A DNA stretch of 36,800 nucleotides from contig NZ_KI421418.1 of NCBI RefSeq assembly GCF_000472285.1, forward strand, positions 107,715 through 144,514. The letters run 5' to 3'. Origin of the DNA: Desulfuromonas sp. TF. GTDB lineage: Bacteria; Desulfobacterota; Desulfuromonadia; Desulfuromonadales; ATBO01. This document shows positions 11,432-13,495 of this stretch, piece after piece. The position numbers and the translations under genes are program-made. The notes under the pieces are model-generated. The model ran no database searches. It was not told the DNA's origin and saw only the letters and a list, made by a program, of their open reading frames with translations. The stretch's first letter is position 1. Every line of letters begins with the position of its first letter.

Positions 11432-11460
11432 TTGAAAACAATCAAATAATCAGCTATAAG
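11432..11460 (+). promoter_or_regulatory. sigma-70 promoter driving the riboswitch RNA
   Basis: TTGAAA at 11432-11437 and TATAAG at 11455-11460 are separated by exactly 17 bases, placed 8 bases after the nucleotidyltransferase stop. Predicted transcription would start near 11467, about 17 bases before the first strand of the aptamer. Confidence 0.65.
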
Positions 11461-11483
11461 TCGCTCATCACTAAAAAACCAAT

Positions 11484-11578
11484 CTCCTTTCTCCGATAAG
11501 AGCAACCCCGGAGTAATCCAGGGACGCAGAGTCGCGGGTCCGTTCTGAACGGATAGCCGGTCCGCCGAAGAGAAGGAT
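11484..11578 (+). promoter_or_regulatory. GEMM-I cyclic-dinucleotide riboswitch aptamer
   Basis: Sequence and structure match the GEMM-I class. P1 is formed by CTCCTTTCTC (11484-11493) with GAGAAGGA (about 11570-11577). The joining motif GCAACC lies at 11502-11507. P2 (CCCCGGA with TCCAGGG, one C-A mismatch) is capped by a GTAA tetraloop at 11513-11516, a GNRA loop as expected, and is followed by the hallmark GGGACGCAGAG at 11521-11531. P3 runs CGGGTCC...GGATAGCCG (11535-11559), with the usual tetraloop-receptor look. The base immediately before G11502-C11503 is A11501; in the reference Vc2 aptamer this position is G20, and A here marks the GEMM-Ib subclass that senses 3',3'-cGAMP in Geobacter. 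Ligand assignment is an inference from my alignment by eye. Confidence 0.75.
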
Positions 11579-11622
11579 GACTTTCCCGGCTTTCCCTCAG
11601 AAGGAGTCGGGGAGGTTGTGCT

Positions 11623-11652
11623 CCATCTTCGGCAGAAGATGGATTTTTTATT
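11623..11652 (+). terminator. intrinsic terminator of the riboswitch expression platform
   Basis: A perfect 8-bp stem, CCATCTTC (11623-11630) and GAAGATGG (11635-11642), with GGCA loop, is followed by ATTTTTTATT. It lies about 45 bases after the aptamer and before the next ORF, so it is well placed for ligand-controlled termination. The 3' strand of P1 (GAAGGATG, 11573-11580) could alternatively pair with CATCTTC of the terminator, a possible antiterminator. Confidence 0.8.
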
Positions 11653-11719
11653 GCAGCAATCTCGGCGCCGGTCATGGTTCCCTTCCTGCGTCGCTGGGGC
11701 CTCTTGTTTCTTACCCGGG

Positions 11720-11971
11720 ATGTCGAAAACCACCGCCGACATCCTGTTTTTCTGTCTGAGCATCCTTTTCGCATCGGCTTTTTCGGAAATGGGTCTGGTT
11801 TCCGCGCCCTCTATCATGGTGAAGGCTATTTTCCTTTACCTGGGGATAAAAACGCTGGTGACCGAAAGTAAGAAGATGTCTGAATTTGCCGTGGGGTCTG
11901 TATTGGCTGTCTTGCTGATTGTGGTGTCCGGAACGGAGTTGAGTAGAAGAAATAAGTACTTTTGTGATTAA
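11720..11971 (+). CDS. possible small membrane protein downstream of the riboswitch
   Basis: A candidate 83-residue ORF starting MSKTTADILFFCLSILFASAF with two or three hydrophobic segments (about 5-22, 29-44 and 55-69) separated by a short Lys/Ser-rich loop (TESKKMSE), ending RRNKYFCD. There is no good ribosome site (CCGGG precedes ATG). The frame is open further upstream to ATG 11618, but that extension overlaps the terminator hairpin and is not protein-like. If real, it is the first gene behind the riboswitch terminator and thus its most direct target. No family is recognised. The remaining part of 11424-11719 is occupied by promoter, aptamer and terminator. Confidence 0.4.
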   Translation: MSKTTADILFFCLSILFASAFSEMGLVSAPSIMVKAIFLYLGIKTLVTESKKMSEFAVGSVLAVLLIVVSGTELSRRNKYFCD

Positions 11972-12003
11972 AACCATGAAATTGGTTGCAATATGATTAT
12001 AAT
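11972..12003 (+). promoter_or_regulatory. candidate promoter region of the OmpA-type gene
   Basis: A perfect -10 hexamer TATAAT lies at 11998-12003, 64 bases before the ompA-type start, but there is no convincing -35 at the right distance. In its place, AACCA (11972-11976) and TGGTT (11983-11987) form an inverted repeat that could bind an activator. The region is strongly AT-rich compared with its surroundings. Confidence 0.4.
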
Positions 12004-12067: not shown

Positions 12068-13495
12068 ATGAAAAATTTGCCGTTGCTTGTTGTTTTCTTT
12101 GCAGTACTTGCAAGTACTCCATTTGCGAAAAAATGCGATGCTGCAATCCGTCCGGGGGCCATGACTCTGAGCCTTTCTGCCGGAGAATACCAATTCGAGG
12201 GAAATCAGATCATTGAAGATACCACTCTCGAAGACTCCCCTGTCTACGATTTCGCCATCGGCTACAACTTCAGTCGCCGATGGGCTCTGGAAGGTGTGTT
12301 CAGCTATATCGATTCGGAAGCTACTTCGGGACCGGTCGACAATGTCGATGTGTTTGCTGCGCACCTGGATCTTCTTTATCATTTCAGGCCCGAAAGAGAT
12401 TTTGTCCCCTACCTCGCCGCAGGTCTTGGAGGCTTCAGCATTCATCCGGGGGGGGACAGCGACGAGAACGCTCTTTTCAACCTCGGTGCCGGTTTCAAGT
12501 ATTTCTTCACGGACAATGTCGGTTTCAGGGCCGACGTCCGGGGCCTTCTCAACATCGACGATGACGATGAGCGGGAACGCGATGTTTACAAAAACATTTC
12601 CTATACGGGTGGCCTGATTTTCCAGTTCGGCGGCGGTCCCAAAGTACCCAAAGTATCTGCAGAGCCTCTTGCCAGGGACAAGGACCAGGATGGTGTGATC
12701 GACCAGTATGATCGGTGTCCCGATACAGCGGAAGGCGTTGTCGTTGATGCCTCCGGGTGTCCCCAGGACAGGGACGGCGATGGCGTCCCCAACTTCAGGG
12801 ATCTTTGTCCAGGAACACCTGCCGGAGCGGTGGTGGACAGCCAGGGTTGTACCGTCGACACCGACATGGACGGAGTCCCCGACGGTCTCGATCTCTGTCC
12901 CGATACCGCCCGGGGCGTCGCCGTTGACGAAAAAGGATGTTCCGAGACGCCAATGACGGATGCGGACGGTGATGGAGTGAAGGACGGCGACGACAAGTGT
13001 CCCAATACTCCGGAGGGGATGCCCGTGAACTCCTATGGCTGTCCCCGGGACGATGATGGCGACGGTGTCTTTGATTTCGAGGACCAATGCCCCGATACTC
13101 CCGAGGGTTCCGTCGTCGGCCCCGATGGGTGCCCCTTGCCTGTTGAGGCGGCGCCCTTGACACTGCGGCTCGAATTCGAATCAGGCGATGCGACGGTGCG
13201 TCCCGAGTTTGCCGGTGAACTCGAAAGAGCCTCCGACTTCATCAAGGCTCATCCCAACAGCCGCATCATCATCGAAGGGCACACGGACAGTGTCGGTTCG
13301 GCATCTTCAAATCTCGCCCTTTCCCAGGCACGTGCCGAAAGCGTGCGGGACTATCTGATAAGCCATTTCGGCGCCGATGCTCAAAGGATCGAGGCAAAGG
13401 GTTACGGTGAGGCGCGCCCCGTAGAAGACAACTCGACTCCGGAAGGCAGGATGCAGAATCGTCGGGTTGTGATTACCCTTATCCCGGGTTCGTAA
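12068..13495 (+). CDS. OmpA-family porin with thrombospondin type-3 calcium repeats
   Basis: 475 residues, signal peptide about 1-26. An N-terminal OprF/OmpA-like eight-stranded barrel (about 30-195; MTLSLSAGEYQFEG, FAIGYNFSRRWALEG, AHLDLLYHFRPERDFVPYLAAGLGG, YTGGLIFQFGGG) is followed by five TSP3-like repeats of about 30 residues, each with DxDxDGxxD and paired Cys (DKDQDGVIDQYDRCPDT, DRDGDGVPNFRDLCPGT, DTDMDGVPDGLDLCPDT, DADGDGVKDGDDKCPNT, DDDGDGVFDFEDQCPDT). A C-terminal OmpA domain binds peptidoglycan (EGHTDSVGS, NLALSQARAESVRDYL, QNRRVVITL). It should anchor the outer membrane to the wall through a calcium-stiffened spacer. ATG 12068 follows AAGGAGGCGTTTA. A strong terminator closes the unit. 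Confidence 0.93.
   Translation: MKNLPLLVVFFAVLASTPFAKKCDAAIRPGAMTLSLSAGEYQFEGNQIIEDTTLEDSPVYDFAIGYNFSRRWALEGVFSYIDSEATSGPVDNVDVFAAHLDLLYHFRPERDFVPYLAAGLGGFSIHPGGDSDENALFNLGAGFKYFFTDNVGFRADVRGLLNIDDDDERERDVYKNISYTGGLIFQFGGGPKVPKVSAEPLARDKDQDGVIDQYDRCPDTAEGVVVDASGCPQDRDGDGVPNFRDLCPGTPAGAVVDSQGCTVDTDMDGVPDGLDLCPDTARGVAVDEKGCSETPMTDADGDGVKDGDDKCPNTPEGMPVNSYGCPRDDDGDGVFDFEDQCPDTPEGSVVGPDGCPLPVEAAPLTLRLEFESGDATVRPEFAGELERASDFIKAHPNSRIIIEGHTDSVGSASSNLALSQARAESVRDYLISHFGADAQRIEAKGYGEARPVEDNSTPEGRMQNRRVVITLIPGS

Follow-up and report, generated by a model that had tools for sequence, protein, structure and literature searches.

A GEMM-I riboswitch of Desulfuromonas sp. TF with adenine at the specificity position and a separate terminator, a candidate OFF switch for cGAMP on a c-di-GMP-I scaffold

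Two terminator layouts are described for GEMM-I riboswitches. In the overlapping one, to which the ON switch pilM belongs, the terminator includes the 3' strand of the aptamer; in the separate one, exemplified by the OFF switch Cd1, this strand is available to an antiterminator (PMC9262584). In the accounts on which we draw, cGAMP riboswitches with a described or predicted direction are ON switches (PMC6456294, PMC9262584, PMC9481103). An A-to-G change at nucleotide 20 converts the GEMM-Ib aptamer of Gmet_0970 from cGAMP to c-di-GMP (PMC6456294), and A20 enables c-di-GMP-I-like aptamers to take cGAMP (PMC9481103, PMC7288161): the A variant of such an aptamer from Desulfobacca acetoxidans gained affinity for cGAMP and may have lost a little of its affinity for c-di-GMP (PMC9481103). 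On the other hand, cGAMP riboswitches are able to bind c-di-GMP by means of a protonated adenine, and c-di-GMP binding by the OFF-type Cd1 was not greatly altered when its G11 was replaced by A (PMC9262584), so that A20 need not change the ligand and dual binding is possible. The signature of Hypr-type cyclases is a serine replacing the base-reading aspartate, together with a GGDEF motif (PMC6456294). Here we analysed a window of 36,800 nucleotides (the whole stretch of DNA under study) from Desulfuromonas sp. TF. Judged by its sequence, one element of this window is a transcription-terminating GEMM-I riboswitch whose specificity base is changed to A (Table 1). We propose, with a probability of about 0.55, that it is an OFF-type switch on the c-di-GMP-I OFF scaffold of its own genome, with A20 and with cGAMP as the most likely ligand.

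Table 1. Features of the riboswitch locus and of the genes behind it, in window coordinates.
Feature	Position	Strand	Basis or detail
Promoter candidate, TTGAAA-17 nt-TATAAG	11432-11460	+	10/12 matches; sequence
P1 5' strand, UCCU-U-UCUC with one bulged U	11485-11493	+	8 standard pairs with 11570-11577
GEMM-I (c-di-GMP-I) aptamer	11491-11569	+	RF01051, 47.9 bits; model R1, 82.2 bits (the window sequence itself is in the R1 building set)
A at the ligand-specificity position (Vc2 G20; A14 in 4YAZ)	11501	+	alignment, model position 11
C at model position 16	11506	+	of 48 A20 aptamers on this scaffold, the remaining 47 have A
GCCGAAGA, aptamer 3' end and predicted antiterminator 5' strand	11564-11571	+	8-bp complement to 11626-11633
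Ligand-pairing C (Vc2 C92; C75 in the Geobacter structure)	11565	+	alignment, model position 83; antiterminator partner G11632
Inner hairpin, prolonging the antiterminator into a single long helix	11579-11617	+	11578-11620 folds at -20.7 kcal/mol
Intrinsic terminator, 9 bp and T6	11622-11649	+	hairpin 11622-11643, loop GGCA, -12.9 kcal/mol
UCUUCGGC, terminator 5' arm and predicted antiterminator 3' strand	11626-11633	+	complement of GCCGAAGA
N-terminal piece of WecA/MraY-like gene (core MVPFLRRWGL)	11644-11703	+	tblastn, residues 30-49 of own paralogue
C-terminal piece of the same WecA-like gene, another frame	11729-11932	+	tblastn E 6e-17 (in 3.2 kb of the window), residues 501-569 of intact own paralogue
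Promoter candidate for the OmpA-family gene, ATGAAA-16-TATAAT	11976-12003	+	10/12 matches
Outer-membrane protein, 475 aa: beta-barrel, thrombospondin type 3 repeats, OmpA domain	12068-13495	+	Pfam PF13505, PF02412, PF00691

In a covariance-model search RF01051 was the sole Rfam family above cut-off in the whole window. The match spans the full model (positions 1-87 of 87) with an E-value of 1.7e-6, over the gathering score of 35 bits used as cut-off, and bears out the GEMM-I aptamer of the first-pass annotation, with its GNRA loop (GUAA, in P2) and its GGGACGCAGAG motif. Standard pairs are found at 19 of the 22 lettered model pairs, and P1, as drawn in Table 1, falls outside the model. The annotation had also placed A11501 at the equivalent of Vc2 G20, and the RF01051 alignment agrees. 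Ligand contacts in 4YAZ, the solved Geobacter cGAMP riboswitch, include A11, A12, U13, A14 and C15 (PMC7288161); laid on the AAUAC of Geobacter-class aptamers they bring A14 to model position 11, which shows that the placement of A11501, hereafter A20, is right. The core of the window aptamer is AAGAGC with G12-C37, i.e. a c-di-GMP-I scaffold carrying A20. P2 contains a C.A mismatch, and the C at model position 16 recurs in only three further switches among the 242 classed below, all of them G20; both departures may weaken the aptamer.

The terminator is as perfect as had been claimed, begins 53 nt past the end of the aptamer and has no strand in common with it. The annotation had further suggested that the end of the aptamer can pair with the 5' arm of the terminator, and this pairing was recovered as a mutually exclusive helix, GCCGAAGA:UCUUCGGC, of 8 perfect pairs that consume C11565, the C that pairs with the ligand. 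When the letters of the terminator arm and loop were shuffled 200 times, no complement as long arose. The entire 11564-11633 segment folds at -39.0 kcal/mol. In a transcript ending before the 3' arm of the terminator, GCCGAAGA:UCUUCGGC is predicted to form and the predicted probability that C11565 is paired to the 5' arm of the terminator is 1.00, while in the full-length transcript the predicted probabilities are 0.60 for the terminator and 0.39 for the antiterminator; the minimum fold holds the terminator when the 5' end is set at 11480 and the antiterminator when it is set at 11467. Forcing the aptamer and P1 changed the energy from -71.7 to -63.4 kcal/mol for the full transcript and from -64.7 to -51.1 kcal/mol for the transcript to 11634, so that from 11620 onward the price is about 8 to 14 kcal/mol, in a calculation that excludes ligand and tertiary contacts. 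As the bound state has no energetic advantage in this calculation, switching is probably kinetic. Upstream, the annotation had reported a consensus promoter. The candidate is indeed near consensus, but when the AT-rich 67 bases that hold it were shuffled 2000 times by letter, 99 of the shuffles contained a site as good, which makes it weak evidence by itself, and an automated promoter scan, whose rule demands T as the last base of the -10 box, returned none at 11432-11460.

We propose that in the absence of ligand GCCGAAGA would pair with UCUUCGGC over the preformed inner hairpin and RNA polymerase would read through, and that once ligand is bound C11565 and P1 would retain GCCGAAGA in the aptamer, freeing the terminator arm and stopping transcription. 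Because, as in Cd1, the terminator stands apart and the antiterminator draws on the ligand pocket, the ligand should turn transcription off, and OFF is the best reading that the layout of the window switch suggests. The pocket C was predicted to pair with the 5' arm of the terminator, at a probability above 0.5, in 5/8 A20 switches with separate terminators of the same genome and in 20/28 of order relatives, against 5/9 and 29/59, respectively, for the G20 switches of this layout; 3/8 own A20 switches on the window scaffold lack such a predicted antiterminator.

The gene that adjoins the switch is, by sequence comparison, a rearranged WecA-like remnant. Its N-terminal piece gave weak E-values over the 3.2 kb searched (0.018 with the paralogue of the same genome, 0.001 with the homologue in genome G008), yet over 30 nt it is 83% identical to the intact own paralogue, and the order of the two pieces is right. 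The C-terminal piece is 49% identical to that paralogue, a Glycos_transf_4 protein, and is enclosed in an 83-codon ORF (11720-11971) that has no Pfam match and resembles the end of long WecA/MraY-like proteins from the own genome and five relatives (E from 3e-17 to 0.011). The pieces stand 25 nt apart, whereas about 450 codons separate them in the intact paralogue. By eye, no ribosome-binding site precedes the ATG at 11720. Within the remnant, at 11716-11746, there is another hairpin, with TTTTT behind it. We had considered the 83-codon ORF as a small membrane protein like those behind two other A20 switches of the genome, L020 and L023, each of which precedes a similar short hydrophobic ORF (53 and about 54 codons, ...LFYR.S.WDVIGLTFA...); this was rejected, the ORF being the C-terminal WecA-like part, and the L020 and L023 ORF proteins gave no convincing match to the window (best E 0.98, for L020, among the matches listed). 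Upstream of the intact WecA-like paralogue and of five homologues in relatives, no riboswitch passed the cut-off in the six stretches searched, two of them short (L281, 659 bases; L282, 1000 bases), and none did near OmpA homologues in 8 searched loci of the 80 fetched. The control of electron-transfer genes that had been evoked for this riboswitch type finds no support at this locus, where the only related context is the polysaccharide-type, WecA-like remnant, followed by the OmpA-family gene.

As a read-through transcript meets this remnant, the window switch may now control little; the copy may be decaying and, the gene behind it being broken, its effect at this locus may be small. Taken further, the aptamer and the terminator would merely persist in front of a broken gene with nothing left to regulate. 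This explanation, which is compatible with the others, is a serious possibility that we hold to be somewhat less probable than its contrary. It would account for two pieces in different frames, for an ATG lacking a visible ribosome-binding site, for an OmpA-family gene equipped with a promoter candidate of its own, and for the rare C at model position 16 next to the P2 mismatch. It fits less well with the retention of a promoter candidate, a full model match, a perfect terminator and a perfect 8-bp antiterminator all together; moreover the 83-codon ORF is still open, and read-through could yet reach the OmpA-family gene.

We compared GEMM-I switches of the genome, the order and the class. At E up to 10, RF01051 matched the own genome (G000, 4.40 Mb) 29 times, with 26 matches over cut-off (10/26 with A20); 28 were kept (10 A20, 18 G20), including L027 and L028, both G20, though they score below cut-off, while L029 (15.1 bits) was dropped. 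Altogether 242 switches were classed, 28 of them own, 138 from 24 order relatives and 76 from the rest of the class. The order sample consisted of 29 relatives of the same order as the host but of other families, and their switches were taken among the matches listed, best scores first, so that their A20 share is not representative; L156, the same-order loci L324-L329, L333 and L334, unlocated rows and most class loci of one listing are outside the counts. Of the 76 class switches 27 were hand-picked, mostly for a length of 75-77 nt (12 from genome G037), and fell into 24 A-CT, 2 A-GC and 1 T-GC by base 20 and positions 12-13. The AAUACU core with C12-G37 in lower P2 is present in 24/27 of the Geobacter-class aptamers taken with model R1, and in these 24 the terminator starts inside the aptamer in 17 cases and is separate in one, with none called by the rule used in 6.

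Over all A20 switches with C12 (n=29: AAUACU, three with CC, own L019 and L026) 21 terminators overlap the aptamer, one is separate and 7 were not called. The A20 switches with G12-C13, the kind found in the window (n=48), have 42 separate terminators, none overlapping and 6 not called. The same holds for G20, with 27 overlapping, 0 separate and 12 not called for CC or CT, and 2 overlapping, 84 separate and 22 not called for GC. A simple rule on lower P2 (C12 overlapping, G12 separate) is thus obeyed by 175 of the 178 terminator-called GC, CC or CT switches, compared to a mean of 133 and a maximum of 149 in 2000 within-genome shuffles; exceptions numbered 6/196 with looser and 2/136 with stricter terminator rules, and the mixed GT types (n=16) were excluded from the 178. 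As read from these related sequences, the rule shows a sharp split of two lineages, not independent events. In the own genome, each of the two layouts occurs with G20 as well as with A20. All 8 own A20 aptamers that share the scaffold of the window aptamer have a separate terminator.

TTCGG, the complement of the CCGAA at the aptamer end, occurs in the 5' half of 57/98 separate terminators and in the 3' half of 4/98. It accompanies 55/77 GCCGAA ends, with the matching C continued in 22/55, and 2/21 ACCGAA ends, with the matching T in 0/2. Aptamer ends differ in how often it is present (Fisher p 3e-7, which among related sequences is no true probability), and a compensatory-change test of the separate terminators gave no covariation at the last pair of the antiterminator. 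Two tandem pairs of G20 switches were also seen on contig C10 of the own genome (L002 with L009, L004 with L007), each switch having its own terminator; the best-scoring family of L002 and L009 is the Rfam variant RF03167, c-di-GMP-I-GGC.

As a tentative proposal, to which we would give somewhat less than even odds, base 20 (ligand) and platform (direction) may combine freely in this order, so that the A20 set on the c-di-GMP-I scaffold would respond to cGAMP by switching OFF, GGDEF genes included, and the AAUACU A20 set by switching ON. Three A20-GC switches, L012, L017 and L021, lie shortly upstream of GGDEF genes, which encode a response regulator-GGDEF protein, a GGDEF protein with a hydrophobic N-terminus and, by eye, a receiver-like protein followed by a GGDEF-EAL protein. 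Such an arrangement would connect cGAMP to c-di-GMP synthesis.

Among the 22 GGDEF domains of the genome, in which the base-reading position was mapped via the GH..GD motif, L046 alone combines the Hypr serine with GGDEF rather than GGEEF. It is a response regulator-GGDEF protein by Pfam, and its best solved relative is the endolysin-cyclase fusion 6d9m (189 bits; next 106), which is presumably the GacA construct described in PMC6456294. When the whole protein (L293) served as query, relatives at E up to 1e-60 were found in 28/30 genomes, own included, and 28/28 carry Ser and GGDEF. The 26 GEMM-I matches, 10 of them A20, and one Hypr-type cyclase make a cGAMP pathway plausible in this genome. 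The cyclase does not prove the ligand of the riboswitch, since three genomes with a Hypr-type gene (G002, G004, G006) gave no match to GEMM-I at E up to 0.001. By analogy with the aptamers cited above, A20 supports cGAMP binding, not exclusive cGAMP binding; cGAMP sensing by the window aptamer is plausible, and both dinucleotides are possibly bound. The most likely ligand would be 3',3'-cGAMP, probably with residual affinity for c-di-GMP, supplied by the single Hypr-type cyclase, and the switch would derive from a c-di-GMP switch.

A20 might instead be tolerated drift in an OFF switch that answers mainly to c-di-GMP. The window switch shares scaffold and platform kind with the G20 separate-terminator switches of its own genome, and the lack of a large effect of the G11-to-A change in Cd1 as well as the protonated adenine (PMC9262584) would allow it. 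However, A20 is no single stray, as it is found in 8/18 own switches of the scaffold and 34/113 of those in the sampled order relatives, and in the own genome it comes with a G at model position 39 (7/8 A20 against 0/10 G20 among G12-C13 switches), an association that is rare in the relatives (1/34 A20, 0/78 G20). We regard drift as unlikely, although by no means far-fetched. Still less probable, and in our view improbable, is an ordinary Geobacter-like GEMM-Ib ON switch in which cGAMP would prevent termination and turn the downstream gene on: A20, a Hypr-type cyclase, the cGAMP switches of Geobacter pgcA and pilM described as ON (PMC6456294, PMC9262584) and the Desulfobacca A variant predicted to be ON (PMC9481103) speak in its favour, but the class aptamers with the AAUACU core overlap their terminator in 17/24 cases whereas that of the window is 53 nt away, and we saw no element by which a bound aptamer could block it.

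We thus favour an A20 switch that cGAMP would turn OFF. Among the papers covered by a literature search on cGAMP riboswitches and on GEMM-I ON and OFF switches, none was seen to report a cGAMP OFF switch, which is no proof that such a switch is unreported. If the reading is right, a change of one base would make a functional OFF switch for c-di-GMP answer to a different messenger, leaving the expression platform untouched, and if an OFF set exists on this other scaffold, a rise in cGAMP would both induce and repress genes. Both claims are directly testable in this genome, where G20 switches have A20 counterparts that resemble them and are built on a platform of like kind.

The first-pass annotation had labelled the window switch GEMM-Ib, an equation with A20 that we rejected after comparison with the AAUACU aptamers of the Geobacter class. 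Like the Geobacter GEMM-Ib switches (pgcA/GSU1761, pilM, Gmet_0970; PMC6456294, PMC9262584), the window switch has A20 and a Hypr-type GGDEF in its genome, and this part of the label stands; the sampled Geobacter-class aptamers, however, have AAUACU, C12-G37 and mostly an overlapping terminator, the ON layout, whereas the aptamer in the window reads AAGAGC with G12-C37 and is followed by a separate terminator. AAUAC with C12-G37 as a GEMM-Ib feature comes from our class sample and may lie outside the original definition of GEMM-Ib. The 3' strand of the aptamer, used by the terminator in the GEMM-Ib ON layout, is taken by the predicted antiterminator in the window. The A variant of Desulfobacca acetoxidans, likened here at the specificity base, is also a G-to-A change on an otherwise c-di-GMP-I-like aptamer, but its authors predict an ON switch and it lies next to AdoCbl riboswitches (PMC9481103). 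Vc2 G20A (PDB 4YB1) offers A20 on a c-di-GMP-I scaffold that binds cGAMP (PMC6274999, PMC7288161); unlike the window switch it is a laboratory mutant, and its parent switch is translational (PMC9262584). By its description, Cd1 of Clostridioides difficile, an OFF switch of the same aptamer family, has the separate terminator and the pocket-consuming antiterminator (PMC9262584), from which the window switch differs by an A for G at the specificity position, in another host and with other genes.
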